Of a stretch of 64,000 nt of DNA, positions 39,671-49,649 are shown one piece after another. A program made the translations under genes and the position numbers. The number at the start of each line of letters is the position of its first letter. Positions within the stretch are counted from its first letter, which is position 1. Source of the stretch: Planctomycetaceae bacterium (lineage in GTDB: Bacteria > Planctomycetota > Planctomycetia > Pirellulales > Pirellulaceae). The stretch spans positions 124,001-188,000 of the forward strand of contig PBNZ01000019.1 in assembly GCA_002723275.1 (NCBI GenBank), read 5' to 3'. The notes under the pieces are model-generated. The model had not been told where the DNA came from. It did not search any database and saw only the letters and a list, made by a program, of their open reading frames with translations.

Positions 39671-42508
39671 CTAACGAATCTGCAGGCCCCGCGGTAGTGA
39701 CTCTCCAAAGGCACGTTGTTGCTCAGCCGAATCGAGATCACCGCCGGTGGTTACCAGCTCTAGGATGTGCTGTGGGCAGTCGTGGGCTTTGAGCCAATCG
39801 ACGACCGTCTCTCGGGTCGAATCACCAATGTCTCGGTAGCGATCACCGGTGCGCCGCGAAAGTTGCATTACGGTAAAGCTGTAGGTCGGGTCGTCATCCG
39901 CGGCTGCGATGAGTGCATCGATCCAGGGTGAAATCGATTCCGCTGAGATGACCGTGTTCAGAGGACCATAAATGGGTACTCGACTCCCCAGCCGACCTAG
40001 CGCCCACGCAATGGCAGGACGAACTGATTCCAATTTACGTTTGCCCAGCAGATCGGTAAGCATTTGGCCTAGCTTCAATTTGACGTTCGGAGAAAGCAAC
40101 TCCAAAGAAGCGAGCAGTCGCCACAATTCCGCAAATTCAGGAATTGTGAAATGAGCTTCGCCTTTTACACCTGCAGCTGTCATGCGGCGATGTAATGCTT
40201 TGACTGATGCTAGCAACGGTTCGGCCAGAGCTCGCTGTTGTCCTGCCGGAAGTCCTCCGGCAATCCGTCGCCATAGAATCCATGATTCCGTGCGACAGAC
40301 GGCCGACTTATGGGCCAGCTTGCCCTGGACCAGTCGCCAGCTTTCGGTGACCCGCCAGTCATCGACCGGCATTCCATAGCCCGGTCGCAGGGAAAAGCCA
40401 AGCAGGTTCAACCAGCGTGCCTCATGTTGCTGGCTCTTGCGACGCCCCGATTCTAATTCGACCAGCTTTTCCCAAATACGTCGCAAGAGGGACATCGGCC
40501 ACTCGTTCCGGTCCATGCCGGATACCTGCACAAGTGATTTGACGAGGTCACTTGGTTTGCGAGTCGCGTCGTCGGCGAACGTCTTTGTCAGAAGTTCTTC
40601 GCAAGGTGCCCAGAGAGTTTCATCCAGAACGCCTTCATGTTCCCCGAACGATTGACCGGCAGTGTGATCCGTTTGAGTTGCGGCGCGAACGTCAAATTGC
40701 AGTCGCCAACGACGATCGCCTTCGGTCTGTTGTAGCGACAATTCGATCGTGCCGATTTCGCTCAGTTGAGCGTGCAGTCGCACCGGCACTGTGCCGCGTT
40801 GGTTACGTCGTTGAGTTCGCAATGCGGTGCGCAGGGGGGGAAGGGTCCGCATTTGTTCCGGATTGATCTCAACGATGTTTCCCGGCATATCGGTGAGACG
40901 CGTGCTGGAGACATGCAGGGGAAACTCCACCGGTTCCGAAATCCGCAAGTCGAATTCCATCTCGGGTAATTCGATCGCGTCGCCCGGTTGGGCCGATCCC
41001 GGAACCACGCAGACCGCAGCTTCGTCTTGATGATGGGAAGCACCGACGTAGTAGCTGCGCGCAAGACCGGCTGCGATCCGGACGCCCTCGCCGCGCCTGA
41101 CCATCCCGTAGTAAGCAGCTCCTCGTGCCACGGCCATGTCGAGCCGATCGTTTTCTAGCAGAGTGGGTGCCCACCCATCCTGATCTCCAAACCAGGCCGT
41201 GACCGTATCCAACAACCGTTGTTGAATCAACGGTGATGCGAACAACCCACCATTAAGCAAGATCAGATCGGGTCGCGCGGGGTCATAAGGAAAATCGTCA
41301 GGATCGTGGATGTCGGCATGTCGATGAGCTCGTAGAAAGGCACTCAAGTACCGCGTGATTGCCGAATCCGGTGTGTAAGGTAACCCAAATTCTTGAAAAC
41401 CAGATCGACGCTGTTCAGGTTCGTCGTTGAGTTCAATTCGAGGGAAGAACCCATCGATCAAGACTTGCTCTACTTCGCTGCGCGTCACTTCGACCCTCAA
41501 GCTTCCACCGATGAGTCGACTGCCTGCGCCAGGAAGATTGATGGTCATCTGTTCCGGCGGATCGGATCCCAACAGAGTCTCTTTAGCTTGACGGCAACTA
41601 CGGACGAGCACGTCCCATTGGCGAGGTTGTAATTTCACATCCTGGCTGAGCTTGGTCTCCAGATGTGTCGCAAGAGCCAGGTCCAGGTTGTCGCCGCCCA
41701 GAATCAGGTGATCACCGACGGCGATACGATGAAAGACCACATCCTGGTTCTGTTGCTCGTCCTGATCCTCCGCTCGGCGAACCCGAATCAGAGTGAAATC
41801 AGACGTTCCCCCGCCAATGTCGCAAACGAGAATCTTCTGTCCGGCTTGAACTAGAGATTCCCAATGGTCCTGATGTCGATTGACCCATGCATAAAAGGCT
41901 GCTTGAGGTTCTTCGATTAAGACCACGCGTGGTAGGTCGGCCTGGGCTGCCGCCTTCACGGTCAATTCTCGGGCCACCTCGTCAAAGGATGCCGGTAATG
42001 TGAGGACGATGTCTTGTTCGGCAAGTGGGTAATCCGGCCAACGATGGTCCCATGATTCCTTGATTTGTCGCAAGTATCGAGCACTGACCTCGATTGGGGA
42101 AAGTCGATCAACGTCGTCCGCGCCGTGCCAGGGCAAGATTTCTGCGGTGCGGTCCACTCCGGCATGACAGAGCCAAGACTTTGCTGAGGCGATCAACCTT
42201 CCTGGTGCTAACGCACCCTCGTCTCGAGCCATCATTCCGACGACATGATCTGCTGCTTTCGCTTGCCACGGTAACGCCAGTGCTTTTTCGTGTCCGTCGA
42301 CTCGAGTTGGCTGAAAATGAAACGACGGTAACGTGTCCCGGGCTTCAACTTGCCCTGGAGCCGTCAATTGCACAACTGGAAAAGAGTTTACGATTCGGTC
42401 CGTAGATTCTGTGTCGACGTAGCAGACCGCAGAATTCGTAGTGCCCAGGTCAATGCCGACGATATAGCGACTAGGGGCTTCATCAATAGGTAAGTTCGCC
42501 AGATTCAT
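39671..42508 (-). CDS. Large Hsp70-family protein (DUF3731-type C-terminus)
   Basis: This 945-aa Hsp70-like ATPase has the phosphate-1 motif GIDLGTTNSAV at residues ~18-28, the connect region VLIEEPQAAFYAW, phosphate-2 CDIGGGTSDFTL and the adenosine motif LNGGLFASPLI. It is much longer than DnaK (~640 aa). The C-terminal ~350 residues are not a canonical substrate-binding lid but an alpha-helical region like DUF3731 found in a planctomycete/proteobacterial Hsp70 subgroup. No dnaJ or grpE is adjacent, so it is probably not the housekeeping DnaK. Clients are unknown. Confidence 0.92.
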   Translation of the reverse strand: MNLANLPIDEAPSRYIVGIDLGTTNSAVCYVDTESTDRIVNSFPVVQLTAPGQVEARDTLPSFHFQPTRVDGHEKALALPWQAKAADHVVGMMARDEGALAPGRLIASAKSWLCHAGVDRTAEILPWHGADDVDRLSPIEVSARYLRQIKESWDHRWPDYPLAEQDIVLTLPASFDEVARELTVKAAAQADLPRVVLIEEPQAAFYAWVNRHQDHWESLVQAGQKILVCDIGGGTSDFTLIRVRRAEDQDEQQNQDVVFHRIAVGDHLILGGDNLDLALATHLETKLSQDVKLQPRQWDVLVRSCRQAKETLLGSDPPEQMTINLPGAGSRLIGGSLRVEVTRSEVEQVLIDGFFPRIELNDEPEQRRSGFQEFGLPYTPDSAITRYLSAFLRAHRHADIHDPDDFPYDPARPDLILLNGGLFASPLIQQRLLDTVTAWFGDQDGWAPTLLENDRLDMAVARGAAYYGMVRRGEGVRIAAGLARSYYVGASHHQDEAAVCVVPGSAQPGDAIELPEMEFDLRISEPVEFPLHVSSTRLTDMPGNIVEINPEQMRTLPPLRTALRTQRRNQRGTVPVRLHAQLSEIGTIELSLQQTEGDRRWRLQFDVRAATQTDHTAGQSFGEHEGVLDETLWAPCEELLTKTFADDATRKPSDLVKSLVQVSGMDRNEWPMSLLRRIWEKLVELESGRRKSQQHEARWLNLLGFSLRPGYGMPVDDWRVTESWRLVQGKLAHKSAVCRTESWILWRRIAGGLPAGQQRALAEPLLASVKALHRRMTAAGVKGEAHFTIPEFAELWRLLASLELLSPNVKLKLGQMLTDLLGKRKLESVRPAIAWALGRLGSRVPIYGPLNTVISAESISPWIDALIAAADDDPTYSFTVMQLSRRTGDRYRDIGDSTRETVVDWLKAHDCPQHILELVTTGGDLDSAEQQRAFGESLPRGLQIR

Positions 42509-45517: not shown

Positions 45518-46504
45518 ATGCACAAAAAAATATCGAGCGACCAGGATCAGGAGAATCTCGTCGACATCGACGGCGTCCGTTTGCACCTGAGTCACCCGAA
45601 CGAAACGATTGGTGAATGGATCGGCCAGGACGAGATTTTGAATCAGCTGTTAGCCTGTTGGCTGGTGGTGGATGACGTTGATCTTCCGCTTTCTCCCAGG
45701 TTGGTTGGGCCCCCCGGAATTGGGAAGACGGCGTTGGGGATGGCGGGTTCAAGGATGCGCGAGCAGCAGCTCTACATTTACCAATGTACCGCTGACACGC
45801 GTCCTGAAGATCTGCTTGTGACTCCGGTGCTGGCTGAAAATGGCAAGATCGCTTACCACGCTTCACCACTGGTAACCGCGATGTTGAGAGGCGGCATTTG
45901 TCTTTTGGACGAAGGCAATCGGATGAACGAAAAGTCTTGGGCGAGCCTCGCTCCGCTGCTGGACCATCGCCGCTACGTTGAGTCGATCGTGGCGGGCATT
46001 TCGATCCCCGCTCATCCTGACTTTCGTTGTGCGGTTACGATGAACCAGGATGAGTCGACGTATGAAATCCCCGACTACATTCTTAGCCGTCTGCAGCCAA
46101 CTCTCGAGTTGGGATATCCCGACAAGCAGGATGAGATGGCGATTCTGCAGTATCATTTGCCCTTTGCCGAACCGGAAATGTTGGCGATGACCGTTGAATT
46201 CTTGCAGCGGTCCCATGAATTGAAGCTGGATTTTTCCACGCGTGATGGAATCAATCTTTTACGCTATGCCATGAAACGGCTCCAACAGATTCAGGATCAT
46301 CCGATCAACAAGGACGAGTTATGGCGCGAGGCACTTCATCGTTGTCTTGGTGAAGATGCCTTGGACTTGGATTCGCTGGCGGATCGACAGCAACGTACGC
46401 TGGGAGGTGATTCGATGCCGTTGGGGCTGGGGGACTTCTTCTTTACGCAAGAAGATCCGCTCAATCCGGATCGAGACGATGACGACGAAGATGAAGAACT
46501 TTAG
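45518..46504 (+). CDS. MoxR-like AAA+ ATPase
   Basis: This 328-aa AAA+ protein of the MoxR/dynein-related (AAA_5) group has Walker A GPPGIGKT near residues 67-74, Walker [10 protein letters not shown], sensor-1 region AVTMNQ, and an arginine-finger region [14 protein letters not shown]. It ends in an acidic tail ([11 protein letters not shown]). MoxR proteins work as chaperone-like ATPases with partner proteins, often vWA-domain ones. No vWA gene is here; instead the next gene, 66 nt downstream, encodes a large unknown protein that is the probable partner. Confidence 0.88.
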
Positions 46505-46570
46505 ACAAGCGAAGTTTTGGATCGGCCAATCAGGTCGACTCGTTGCGAAACTTTAAGAGTAGACGGTGCG

Positions 46571-48448
46571 ATGTCAGAGGTATTGCGAATCGGATCCCGA
46601 ATCACCGCGTTGCCGGTGATTCATGGAAGCGCTGACTGTGCGTTGGAAGTGCGGCGAGTCATGCTTGACCAGCATTTCGACTGCGTTGCCGTACCGCTGC
46701 CGCCATCGTTTCGAAATGACGTTCTCGCCGCGTTGGATTGGTTGCCGACCCCGACGCTCATCACACAACGAGAAGCCGAAGCTTACGGACGTGAGTGGTC
46801 ACCCGAGGATGATCTTTACGATGACTCTGGCGACTCGGCGTCACTCAGCTACGTACCCATCGATCCTTGCCAGCCGGTGATTGCGGCATTGAGGATTGCT
46901 CAAGGCGAGCGATTGCCTTGCGAGTTTATCGACCTCGAAACCGCTCGGTTCGAACCGGTCTCGGCAACCCTGCCGGATGCTTACGCCTTGAAGAAGGTGA
47001 ATCTTGAACGGTTTGCGGCGGCCATGTTGCCCAGCATTCCACCGCCAGATCATGGGCAACCTCGTGCTCGTATCGAATGGATGGCTCATCGTTTGAGGGA
47101 ACTCGAGCAGCAGTATCAATCGATTCTCTTCATTTGTTCTGTTCTGGATTGGCCGTGGATTCGTGGGGCTTATTGTGATCAAGTCGAACCAGCAGTCGAA
47201 GAAGATCTGGTCGAGGAAACGGAATCGTACGCGATTGATCCCAATACGTTGATCTTTACGTTTGGTGAGTTGCCATTCATCACTGCCTTGCACGAACGGG
47301 CTCGCGCAGAGCTTGAAGATGACGAAAACCTGTCGATCGACGGTATCAAGGAATTGTTGCTTACCGCTCGCGAAGCCTACTTGGAGGATTTCCATGGGCG
47401 AGCACGAAAGATCACACCGCATCTTCTTGCTGTCTGTCTGCGATATGTTCGAAATCTTACTCTGCTGGAACGAAGGTTGACCCCCGATCTTTATTCCATC
47501 GTGATTGCAGCCAAGCAGATCTGTGGCGATGGATTTGCCTTGCACGTTGCCGAAACGGCTCGAAACTATCCCTATCTACAGTCAACAGGGTTGGACGAAG
47601 CTGGGATGGGCATTGATCAAATACGTTTGCCCGACGGTGACGTTTATTCTGCCAAGAGTCGATTACCGGGGCCGCCCATGACTTGGCGATCTTGCGAGCT
47701 TCGTCGGCGTCCTGACAAGACGGAACGAGAGCGGTGGGCCATGAAGTGGAATCCGATGTCCCAATGTAGCTGGCCGCCGGAAGACGATCTGATTGAGAAT
47801 TTTCGCGCGCACGTCTGTGATCGGGCGAAACAGATCATGGGAGCCGACCTTGTGCGGACGGAAAAGTTCACCACCAGTATCAAGGACGGAATTGATATCC
47901 GAGATACGCTACGAAACTGGCACACACAGGAAATCTATGTAAAAGTTTTGCCGCCCTCCCGGGGCAAGCTTGATGCTGTCGTCATGCTGTTCGATTGCCC
48001 CGCCGATCCAAGAGATTATCCCTGGCGGACCACCTGGTTTGCTGAGCATCAGAACGAATCGACTTTGGCATTCTTCGGGACCGATTTTTCTGAGGAACTC
48101 GTGGGGCCGGGAATTGGATTGGCGAACTATGGCGGCGCTATGTTTCTCTTTCCTCCGGTGTCCATTCCAGATATTTGGATTGATCCGCGACTCGACTTTA
48201 CCGAAACACTGGAAGAGCGATTGCTGGCGGCCGCCTGTTTGCACAGCAGTAGTCCCACCGTCGCGCTGTTATCCGCGTATCCGCCGGGTGCTGCCTGGCG
48301 ACGGTTAGCCAAAAGATTCTCCAAAAAATGGATCCACGTTCCGCTGGCGCAGTTCAGCGATGCGACGGTTCAGCAGTTGCGGATGGTGCACGTGTTGAAT
48401 GGCCACCAGATTCGCAGCTATGCATCGCACTTTATACGGAAGGCGTGA
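46571..48448 (+). CDS. Unknown 625-residue-class protein paired with MoxR ATPase
   Basis: I cannot assign a family to this ~625-aa cytosolic protein. The N-terminus has a pattern faintly like TraB/ChaN/DUF5682 proteins: VIHGSADCALEVRRVM, then CVAVPLPPS (where that clan reads 'D...VEGP'), a GERLPCEFIDLE strand, a helix ARIEWMAHRLRELEQ, and a strand QSILFICSVLDWPWI. The C-terminal ~200 residues have beta-strand/Trp-rich stretches (YPWRTTWFAEHQNES) and a final segment around HSSSPTVALLSAYPPGA. DUF5682 genes are known neighbours of MoxR ATPases, which makes the resemblance worth testing. ATG 46571 is chosen because upstream in-frame codons look non-coding. Confidence 0.75.
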   Translation: MSEVLRIGSRITALPVIHGSADCALEVRRVMLDQHFDCVAVPLPPSFRNDVLAALDWLPTPTLITQREAEAYGREWSPEDDLYDDSGDSASLSYVPIDPCQPVIAALRIAQGERLPCEFIDLETARFEPVSATLPDAYALKKVNLERFAAAMLPSIPPPDHGQPRARIEWMAHRLRELEQQYQSILFICSVLDWPWIRGAYCDQVEPAVEEDLVEETESYAIDPNTLIFTFGELPFITALHERARAELEDDENLSIDGIKELLLTAREAYLEDFHGRARKITPHLLAVCLRYVRNLTLLERRLTPDLYSIVIAAKQICGDGFALHVAETARNYPYLQSTGLDEAGMGIDQIRLPDGDVYSAKSRLPGPPMTWRSCELRRRPDKTERERWAMKWNPMSQCSWPPEDDLIENFRAHVCDRAKQIMGADLVRTEKFTTSIKDGIDIRDTLRNWHTQEIYVKVLPPSRGKLDAVVMLFDCPADPRDYPWRTTWFAEHQNESTLAFFGTDFSEELVGPGIGLANYGGAMFLFPPVSIPDIWIDPRLDFTETLEERLLAAACLHSSSPTVALLSAYPPGAAWRRLAKRFSKKWIHVPLAQFSDATVQQLRMVHVLNGHQIRSYASHFIRKA

Positions 48449-48495: not shown

Positions 48496-49320
48496 TTAGC
48501 TGTCGGTCGAAGGCGCCAGTGCCAGTTCCTTGAGGGCATCAAGGCTTGCCAACACATCATCACAAGAGATCTGTTGCCAATCGTCCGTTTTTTGCCGAAG
48601 GATGGCGAGTTTGAACGCCTCAAATGCCTCCGAGAGATCGGACGGGAGCTCGGCCAGATTCTCAAAGGGACGCACATAGGGTGCGCTTCCCAATTCGTCC
48701 TCAGCGTAGATCGACGCGCCCGTCTCCCGATCGGTTGACTCATCACCATCGACGTTATCTTCGTCGCCGAAGTCTGGACCCGCCGGACTTCGAGCTTCAG
48801 CGATGTGGTCTGAATCAGAGACGACAAGACGCTCTTGTGAGCTGGCAGTCTCGGAGGATTCGGCTTCAAAATCCTCGTCAGGCTCTTGGGCCACAATTTC
48901 CGAGTTCTGAGGTTCGTCTTCGGCGACCGCGCCATGAGATTCCCAGCGTTGACGTCGCATGTGGGATACTGACCACTTGCTTTGGCTCGCTCCCTCAAGC
49001 CACATTTCAGCGTCGTCCCAGTCGATGGCGGCTTGGAAATGGCTCCAGAAGAGTCCTTCGTAATCCTGGTAGTTGGAACCAAATCGTTCGTAGACGCGAC
49101 GGAGACGACCCACGTGTTGTCCGCTCACGCCATCGACCAATTCGCTCCATGTCTGGTCCGAGTATTCGGTTGCAGAAGCACCGGACTCGATGGCTGCTTC
49201 ACGCCACTCGTGAATGATCCGACCTTTTTCCCAATTCGTGGTACTGATCAGACGATTCCAGCGACCGACAAACGGTTGGGTGGTGGTATCGATTGAAACA
49301 GCTTCTTGCTCGCGATCCAT
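48496..49320 (-). CDS. Unknown acidic protein with helical N-terminal domain
   Basis: This 274-aa protein converges on the MoxR partner gene with a 47-nt gap. Residues ~12-115 form a Trp-rich helical domain (VGRWNRLISTTNWEKGR, VSGQHVGRLRRVYERFG, WSVSHMRRQRW) that resembles the helical DNA-binding parts of DUF3102/ParB-like proteins, but I cannot assign it. Residues ~120-215 are strongly acidic and low-complexity (EPDEDFEAESSE). The C-terminal ~60 residues are again helical. It has no signal peptide, so is cytosolic. A DNA-binding or adaptor role is a guess only. Confidence 0.7.
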   Translation of the reverse strand: MDREQEAVSIDTTTQPFVGRWNRLISTTNWEKGRIIHEWREAAIESGASATEYSDQTWSELVDGVSGQHVGRLRRVYERFGSNYQDYEGLFWSHFQAAIDWDDAEMWLEGASQSKWSVSHMRRQRWESHGAVAEDEPQNSEIVAQEPDEDFEAESSETASSQERLVVSDSDHIAEARSPAGPDFGDEDNVDGDESTDRETGASIYAEDELGSAPYVRPFENLAELPSDLSEAFEAFKLAILRQKTDDWQQISCDDVLASLDALKELALAPSTDS

Positions 49321-49649
49321 AGCGCAGGCTCCTGACAACATCGAATCCTGAAGACGTCCCCGATGCTAACGGAGCAACAAGAGTTCGTGAAGATGCACCG
49401 CCTCTTAACGGCGACCAGGATCATTCGAGCCGTATTTTTTCGAGATATTTCGTTTCTCAACGTGTTGCGTTCTCTGTGAAGAGCCTGGCAAGACGTTGGG
49501 GAAAACTTGTCGAAGAAAAAAAGGGATCCACTCTGGGACGCAACTTGGGTCTTGTGGCCCGGTTTCGGTGGTATCTGGCGGTTTTGGTAAGTCGCGAATA
49601 CTATACGGATTGTAGGGGCGGATGGCACAAGACCATCCCGCATCTGGCA
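49321..49649. other. Gene-free stretch
   Basis: This is the upstream region of the acidic protein gene and the 3' flank of the CDGSH gene. The open frames here are short antisense or motif-less ones. No hairpin with a T-run was found. Confidence 0.4.

Follow-up and report, generated by a model that had tools for sequence, protein, structure and literature searches.

Which protein does a MoxR-type ATPase work with when its neighbour belongs to no catalogued family? The question is raised by two genes in a 64,000-nucleotide stretch of a Planctomycetaceae bacterium (assembly GCA_002723275.1, contig PBNZ01000019.1, positions 124,001 to 188,000 of the forward strand; the whole stretch is referred to as the window), one encoding an AAA+ ATPase of the MoxR type and the other a large protein, here termed the partner, which the initial annotation could not place. 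Our analysis indicates that the two genes form a real and conserved unit, undescribed as far as the searched literature shows, and that the ATPase and its partner probably act as one functional unit, a MoxR ATPase with a dedicated cofactor that works without a recognisable vWA domain. MoxR ATPases are widespread, and the general view, as given in the relevant passages of PMC3893208, is that vWA cofactors mediate their action on a few known clients; a pair whose cofactor is of another kind, co-inherited in all 45 partner genomes of a phylum sample and present in a second phylum, would widen this picture.

Conservation, co-inheritance and gene order of the pair

A re-check of the open reading frames (ORFs) confirmed, by coordinates and strand (Table 1), the initial description of two co-directional genes 66 nucleotides (nt) apart. 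The ATPase frame opens with an ATG at 45518 and its stop codon ends at 46504, the acidic tail at the C-terminus being real, and the partner frame extends from an ATG at 46571 to a stop codon ending at 48448, with 46505-46570 as the spacer. An alternative TTG start at 46517 would yield a partner of 643 amino acids (aa); the ATG is preferred because the alignment of the relatives begins there. The motifs VIHGSADCAL and CVAVPLPPS, which had been quoted for the partner, are found in its sequence. Among 40 genomes of relatives, counting that of the window itself, 18 hold a partner match (51-100% identity), nearly full-length in 17 of them and starting at residue 6 in the eighteenth (G010). Twenty further ATPases share 51-91% identity with that of the window. 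As both are conserved across relatives, neither is a chance ORF.

The ATPase matches Pfam AAA_5 with 68.6 bits (cut-off 22) and carries the Walker A, Walker B and sensor 1 motifs of this family, the motif residues being invariant in 21 of 21 aligned sequences. The nearest named models and structures are GvpN, Midasin, CbbQ and NorQ. Among solved relatives, Midasin was reached with an E value of 1.4e-22, CbbQ with 1.6e-8 and NorQ with 3.8e-8. No named model or solved structure lies nearer than Midasin and those of the CGN subfamily (CbbQ, GvpN, NorQ), but the match to the GvpN model (E value 6.9e-7, 29 bits) is far under its cut-off of 266.8 bits. The window partner is also unlike the known vWA partners of the CGN proteins.

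Co-inheritance was determined mainly in 294 genomes across the phylum, in which an ATPase orthologue was accepted at an E value of 1e-40 or below. Across the phylum the partner is present in 45 genomes and the ATPase orthologue in 47. The orthologue occurs in all 45 partner genomes, compared with 2 of the 249 partner-less ones (one-sided Fisher test, 4e-51, shared ancestry uncorrected). The orthologue stands well clear of its many paralogues: in 40 genomes examined for it, orthologue matches reach at least 138 bits, the lowest belonging to pieces of one gene split over two contigs, and the best ATPase match stays at or below 43 bits in 10 of the 11 partner-less genomes. Both genes are missing together from all nine examined partner-less genomes of the window's family and from one genome of its order (G205). 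A species-level scan (one genome per GTDB species) gave at least 573 confirmed partner stretches, and the 80 kept bear planctomycete titles or, in three cases, plain 'bacterium'. The single match in a plasmid collection resides on plasmid pS13 of Neochlamydia sp. S13 (28% identity over 98% of the protein), where a gene annotated as 'AAA family ATPase', clearly of the same kind as the window ATPase by its sequence, ends 5 nt upstream of the partner homologue; no literature was found under the name of this plasmid. A phage collection held no partner match.

At 30 of 55 partner loci the ATPase is located upstream on the same strand, mostly at a distance of 20-420 nt, twice at about 1.3 kb and at 1.4 kb at most, and wherever an ATPase was found at a partner locus this order and strand were fixed. 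At the other 25 loci the ATPase lies outside the fetched flank, yet it is found elsewhere in each of these 25 genomes; in G019 the two genes are about 15 kb apart. An overlapping set of 80 loci comprised 36 linked pairs, 35 loci without an ATPase within at least 3 kb upstream and nine with too short a flank. On the partner tree, which mostly groups genomes of one lineage, linkage changed six times by parsimony, and four of these changes are forced by well-supported branches. That both genes are kept after separation supports a functional tie. The tie between the two is conserved in that all partner genomes of the phylum sample carry both genes, also where they lie apart. It might be argued that the two genes, although each is conserved in some planctomycetote lineages, have nothing to do with each other and simply share the lines of descent; both do follow lineage, and the co-occurrence test is uncorrected for phylogeny. 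We regard this as very improbable, given that both genes are patchy, that they are missing together from the nine partner-less family genomes and G205, that order and strand are fixed wherever they are adjacent, and that the same pair occurs in another phylum.

The third gene that the initial annotation had envisaged did not emerge: clustering of ORFs from a simple caller revealed no recurring third gene or effector, either at the 55 partner loci or around the 26 ATPases that lie apart from it. Apart from the pair itself, clustering of these 81 loci at 60% coverage most often grouped an ORF antisense to the ATPase and overlapping it (9 loci) and one family found in 8 loci at no fixed place, and looser clustering produced one mixed cluster in 10 of the 55 partner loci.

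The N-terminal domain of the partner and its putative active site

The partner is matched by no model at E values up to 1 in Pfam, NCBIfam, PADLOC and PHROGs. The faint ChaN and DUF5682 features noticed earlier at its N-terminus nevertheless proved to be a good lead for half of the protein. A profile of 37 partner members aligned to ten DUF5682 proteins of relatives with an hhalign score of 75 (E value 3.4e-8 for a single comparison; residues 27-322), compared with 13.2-20.0 for eight controls using another family, reversed or shuffled columns. The 37 members comprise a canonical, deep-branching clade of 16 and the window clade of 21, which form the two sides of one fully supported branch of the partner tree. 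Taken alone, the canonical clade scored 72.9 and the window clade 37.8 (E value 0.0016, hhalign probability 16), so the support for DUF5682 comes mainly from the deep-branching members. In a plain hmmsearch with the partner profile, one of the ten DUF5682 ORFs was reached at 5.9e-8, two at 0.003-0.004 and the other seven at 0.03 or above. The Pfam model DUF5682 (PF18934, gathering score 26 bits) left the window protein unmatched at E values up to 5; it matched two of the 37 members, with a best E value of 0.1, and the Neochlamydia copy with 13.2 bits. With the whole family used, residues 1 to about 320 of the partner are, at the level of profile comparison, remote homologues of the N-terminus of DUF5682/YehM proteins.

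Structural modelling points in the same direction. AlphaFold2 returned a model of the window partner with a predicted local distance difference test (pLDDT) value of 85. A sequence search for solved relatives yielded nothing convincing (best E value 1.1 for the window protein and 0.029 for the profile), and Foldseek with the model gave nothing at E values of 0.001 or below. VIA-align with residues 1-206 placed 8b6h_DQ, a Tetrahymena complex IV subunit, on top (Z 11.7, root-mean-square deviation (rmsd) 5.0, 176 residues aligned), and also matched ChaN (2g5g; Z 8.9, rmsd 4.0, 140 aligned), EreC (7.5; 3.7, 147), HopBA1 (7.1; 3.5, 136), Bcr135 (6.9) and PMT (6.5; 3.9, 136). Unrelated phosphatases reach Z 6.5, and we consider HopBA1 and PMT as tied with them. 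ChaN, HopBA1, Bcr135 and PMT are listed as TIKI superfamily relatives of RRSP in the part of PMC6254334 that deals with them. The N-terminal domain is accordingly predicted to adopt a fold with a TIKI/ChaN-like parallel β-sheet core, and DUF5682/YehM proteins would thereby gain a link to a fold with known enzymes. As an observation in its own right, the top rank of 8b6h_DQ points to the recruitment of a TIKI/ChaN-like protein into mitochondrial complex IV in ciliates.

The clades differ in the residues that might form an active site. In the canonical clade E42, an acidic residue at position 168 and G190 are kept in 16 of 16 members, and H193 and H18 in 15 of 16 each; the same kind of columns are invariant in DUF5682 (E, R-E-x-x-M and G-x-x-H), and the Neochlamydia partner also keeps these putative active-site residues. 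Most of them are lost jointly in the 21 members of the window clade: P or A stands at position 42 and D or E at 193, no member has an acidic residue at 168 or a G at 190, and 19 still have H18. None of 66 close relatives (of A3 in our numbering) keeps E42, and six keep H193. Given our inferred correspondence to the published residues, the window protein retains H18 of the 2His/2Glu set of TIKI proteins and has P42, I168 and D193 at the remaining positions. As most of the putative active-site residues are lost, the domain appears to be a pseudoenzyme in the window clade, whereas outside this clade it may, judging from the fold, be an enzyme. Thus, the relationship to DUF5682 and ChaN that had been suspected stands for the N-terminal 320 or so residues, by whole-family profile and fold, but not for most of the putative active site of the window protein. 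Partners with and without this site provide a natural experiment. The likeness to the TIKI superfamily (ChaN, Bcr135/Ere, HopBA1, PMT, RRSP) consists in the predicted fold of residues 1-206; the window clade differs in the absence of most of the motif, in the fusion to two further modules and in the inheritance with an ATPase. PMT is described in the pertinent section of PMC6254334 as a precedent for a TIKI member without the 2His/2Glu motif.

These findings bear on the idea of a biological-conflict system, which the initial annotation had touched on. The pair would then be a defence module, a TIKI-like hydrolytic effector being restrained and deployed by the ATPase. MoxR-type ATPases are part of proposed MoxR-vWA ternary conflict systems, with planctomycetes among the reported hosts (PMC7159879, in the sections concerned), TIKI-fold proteins include toxins and effectors (PMC6254334, likewise), and one copy of the pair resides on the Neochlamydia plasmid. 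The window pair differs from the ternary systems, however, in that it comes without vWA, third component or effector, and neither 'DUF5682' nor 'yeh' is mentioned in the main text of PMC7159879. Furthermore, the putative active site is largely lost in the window clade, the genes repeatedly separate and are both kept, the loci examined hold no recurring third gene or effector, neither the phage collection nor, for either protein, PADLOC gave a match, and the partner tree mostly groups single-lineage genomes. We therefore consider a conflict role quite improbable; a housekeeping role in maturation would fit the repeated unlinking and the lack of effectors better.

The C-terminal part of the partner and the vWA question

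The most conserved part of the partner is, according to the alignment, its C-terminal domain, which the initial annotation had left unmentioned. It holds 31 of the 48 invariant columns of the 37-member alignment. With Neochlamydia included, E404, D405, E409, D439, T446, E492, E496, H607 and R615 are identical in 38 of 38 sequences, as are F433, S436, G440, T488, W489, S497, G512, P513, G521, G522 and L609. Within this domain, the loop at residues 431-465 is modelled with pLDDT values below 50 at 431-446 and 458-461 despite its conservation. Residues 336-625 compared with DUF5682 gave a score of 23.0 (E value 0.066) over 16 columns, the reversed control reaching 18.2. When the domain was predicted alone, neither VIA-align nor Foldseek returned a significant fold match. 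Entries that, by their names, we take to be RNase H-like were numerous in the fold lists, all of them weak, and an RNase H-like fold is not claimed (best VIA-align Z 5.1 for 5e2c, rmsd 3.8, 97 aligned; Foldseek E value 0.053).

Between the two domains lies a helical bundle. In VIA-align, residues 256-333 resemble the C-terminal helices of the magnesium-chelatase I subunit, which we take to be its lid (Z 6.4 over 70 residues at rmsd 2.6, and Z 6.1 over 67 at rmsd 2.4). With the C-terminal part of its own ATPase the bundle scored 16.7, whereas DUF5682 gave 19.6 and the YehL-type ATPases 10.5; we treat the resemblance to an AAA+ lid as a lead rather than a result. In DUF5682 itself, residues 288-380 of the protein at locus L243 matched the C-terminal part of the YehL-type ATPases at L250-L259 (hhalign 32.6, E value 5e-5, controls at most 12.6), and this helical stretch is possibly a detached AAA+ lid.

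The closest known arrangement is that of Escherichia coli K-12 (NC_000913), in which the ATPase YehL is followed by YehM (DUF5682), YehP (vWA) and YehQ (SWIM). As in the window, a MoxR-type ATPase precedes a protein with the same N-terminal domain; in contrast, YehP and YehQ are without counterpart here, the C-terminal halves are not recognisably related and the ATPases are distant. A profile of the window-family ATPases recovered two of nine YehL-type ATPases at E values of 1e-3 or below (best 7.6e-5) in a small ORF set of ATPases beside DUF5682, and by this comparison and its best solved relatives (Midasin, CbbQ and NorQ) the window ATPase belongs to another branch than those of the YehL type. 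The gene yehM is reportedly named in a study of E. coli and copper. No description of the partner family was found in the literature, subscription journals being mostly outside the search, and none under the name DUF5682; with the tie to the ATPase conserved, the pair remains the candidate for an undescribed module that it had been taken for.

DUF5682 is present in 10 of the 40 relatives, and exactly these ten carry a strong CoxE-type vWA of 124-181 bits. Of the 18 partner genomes among the relatives, 14 are without DUF5682, and in these no CoxE-vWA match exceeds 34 bits. The earlier statement that no vWA gene is present extends to the whole window genome for strong proteins of the CoxE/YehP type, the best match reaching 30 bits. 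Strong vWA in 10 of 10 DUF5682-bearing relatives versus 0 of 14 with the partner only indicates that the window pair is independent of a YehP-type vWA. With regard to the Yeh cluster itself, DUF5682 and a CoxE-type vWA share one frame at loci L255 and L256 (genomes G022 and G009; 1246 and 1264 aa), a natural YehM-YehP fusion, and on contig C1 of G006 DUF5682 (6633626) and a strong CoxE-type vWA (4817095) are 1.8 Mb apart; these genes, too, can therefore separate with both kept.

A vWA might be hidden in the partner itself. The C-terminal domain would then be a vWA with an erased metal site, the partner a fused and eroded YehM-YehP and the pair an ordinary MoxR-vWA machine. This was suggested by eye, as the loop D-x-[RK]-x-T-[LI]-R with a hydrophobic strand ending in D or E resembles the stretch before the YehP vWA, and a shared frame does exist in the two fusions among the ten DUF5682-bearing relatives. 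We rejected the hidden vWA as profile comparisons stayed at control level: the C-terminal domain scored 14.7 against nine YehP-type vWAs (controls 13.3-17.4) and 16.0 against 38, a score that was also reached by 30 of 100 shuffles. Fold searches brought up mostly RNase H-like entries, all weak, and no vWA model matches any of the 37 partner sequences at E values up to 5. An eroded vWA is therefore unlikely.

Several points weigh against a dedicated, vWA-independent pair. Six of the 14 relatives with the partner and without DUF5682 have weak CoxE-vWA matches over the Pfam cut-off (26-33 bits), which we have taken for general vWA proteins, and in the phylum sample a strong CoxE-type vWA is present in 8 of the 45 partner genomes and absent from 37. 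The genome-wide survey was confined to the CoxE/YehP type, so that an unlinked vWA protein of another family could still be involved. The ORF caller behind the neighbour analysis was crude and at several loci took an antisense ORF instead of the ATPase. As to the bundle, its score of 16.7 against its own ATPase is weak, shuffled controls of a related comparison reaching 13.5, and chance matches are common among helical bundles. That the two proteins touch is something that we infer rather than observe. Finally, the ATPase orthologue occurs without the partner in G190 (one contig, 99% complete) and in G045 (66% complete).

With respect to G190, the orthologue at 213905-214864 of contig C1 (L124) is 71% identical to the window ATPase and resides in a complete genome in which no partner was found. 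A profile search, run without a positive control of its own, detected the partner in 0 of 11 previously negative genomes, G190 among them. This genome provides a natural test case for a possible role of the ATPase beyond the pair.

Table 1. Position of the two genes and of features of their products in the window.
Feature	Position	Strand	Evidence
MoxR-type AAA+ ATPase, 328 aa, acidic C-terminal tail	45518..46504	+	Pfam AAA_5 E 7.2e-19; 21-member alignment
Walker A GPPGIGKT, residues 64-71	45707..45730	+	G64, P66, G67, G69, K70, T71 invariant, 21/21
Walker B region CLLDEGNRM, residues 128-136	45899..45925	+	L130, D131, E132, N134, R135, M136 invariant, 21/21
Partner protein, 625 aa, no catalogued family	46571..48448	+	database searches; 37-member alignment
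Predicted alpha/beta domain of TIKI/ChaN-like type, residues 1 to about 215, related to the N-terminus of DUF5682	46571..47215	+	hhalign; VIA-align Z 8.9 ChaN, 7.5 EreC
P42, canonical Glu (VELP)	46694..46696	+	E 16/16 canonical and Neochlamydia; P/A 21/21 window clade
I168, canonical acidic residue after R167	47072..47074	+	E/D 16/16 canonical and Neochlamydia; acidic 0/21 window clade
D193, canonical His of GxxH	47147..47149	+	H 15/16 canonical and Neochlamydia; D/E 21/21 window clade
Helical bundle resembling an AAA+ lid (lead), residues 256-333	47336..47569	+	VIA-align to magnesium-chelatase I subunit
C-terminal domain, residues 336-625	47576..48445	+	AlphaFold2 alone pLDDT 77; nine E/D/T/H/R residues identical 38/38
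Conserved flexible loop EKFTTS-KDG-D-R-T, residues 431-465	47861..47965	+	F433, S436, D439, G440, T446 identical 38/38

A possible mode of action and the surroundings of the pair

For the reading that we favour, an ATPase with a dedicated cofactor, the following mode of action might be proposed. The MoxR-type ATPase would form a ring and, together with the partner, remodel or mature a client in a way similar to the RavA-ViaA or CbbQ/NorQ systems. By analogy with the MoxR-cofactor pairs treated in passages of PMC3893208, the ATPase would drive conformational work on the client through the partner. RavA-ViaA and other MoxR-vWA pairs, as presented there, likewise consist of two proteins, an ATPase and a dedicated cofactor; in contrast to these, the window cofactor has no detectable vWA domain. 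It would instead combine an N-terminal domain of the TIKI/DUF5682 type with a helical bundle similar to an AAA+ lid and with a new C-terminal domain. Where the TIKI-type domain keeps the putative catalytic residues, as in Neochlamydia and the deep-branching planctomycetotes, a hydrolase activity is possible. In the window clade the domain might serve as a scaffold or as a module that binds the client, in which case the conserved function would fall to the C-terminal domain. The flexible loop and the C-terminal domain would be the best candidates for contacts with the ring or the client.

If this holds true, MoxR motors could work through a cofactor without a vWA domain. The further-reaching idea of a vWA-independent MoxR class in planctomycetotes and at least one chlamydia, defined by a TIKI-fold enzyme as cofactor that turned into a pseudoenzyme in one large clade, a detached lid-like module that could provide docking on the ATPase ring and a new terminal domain with a strictly conserved acidic/His site of its own, is put forward tentatively, and we would not yet bet on it in this complete form. 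For planctomycetotes, the target of the pair would be a tractable question. A heme-copper oxidase (PF00115) was considered as the client and proved uninformative, being present in 40 of 40 relatives.

The gene that follows the partner on the opposite strand was found at just one other of the 55 loci, in the same genus, and belongs to a different story. It encodes a 281-aa protein (48496-49341, minus strand) that weakly matches PDC-S02, a candidate-defence model of PADLOC (E value 1.2e-5, 22.7 bits). On the other side, the minus-strand gene at 39671-42508 encodes a 945-aa protein that starts with GIDLGTTNSAV, presumably the signature of an HSP70/DnaK ATPase, and has a long extra C-terminal part; a relative of this protein is encoded near the partner at one other locus (L077).

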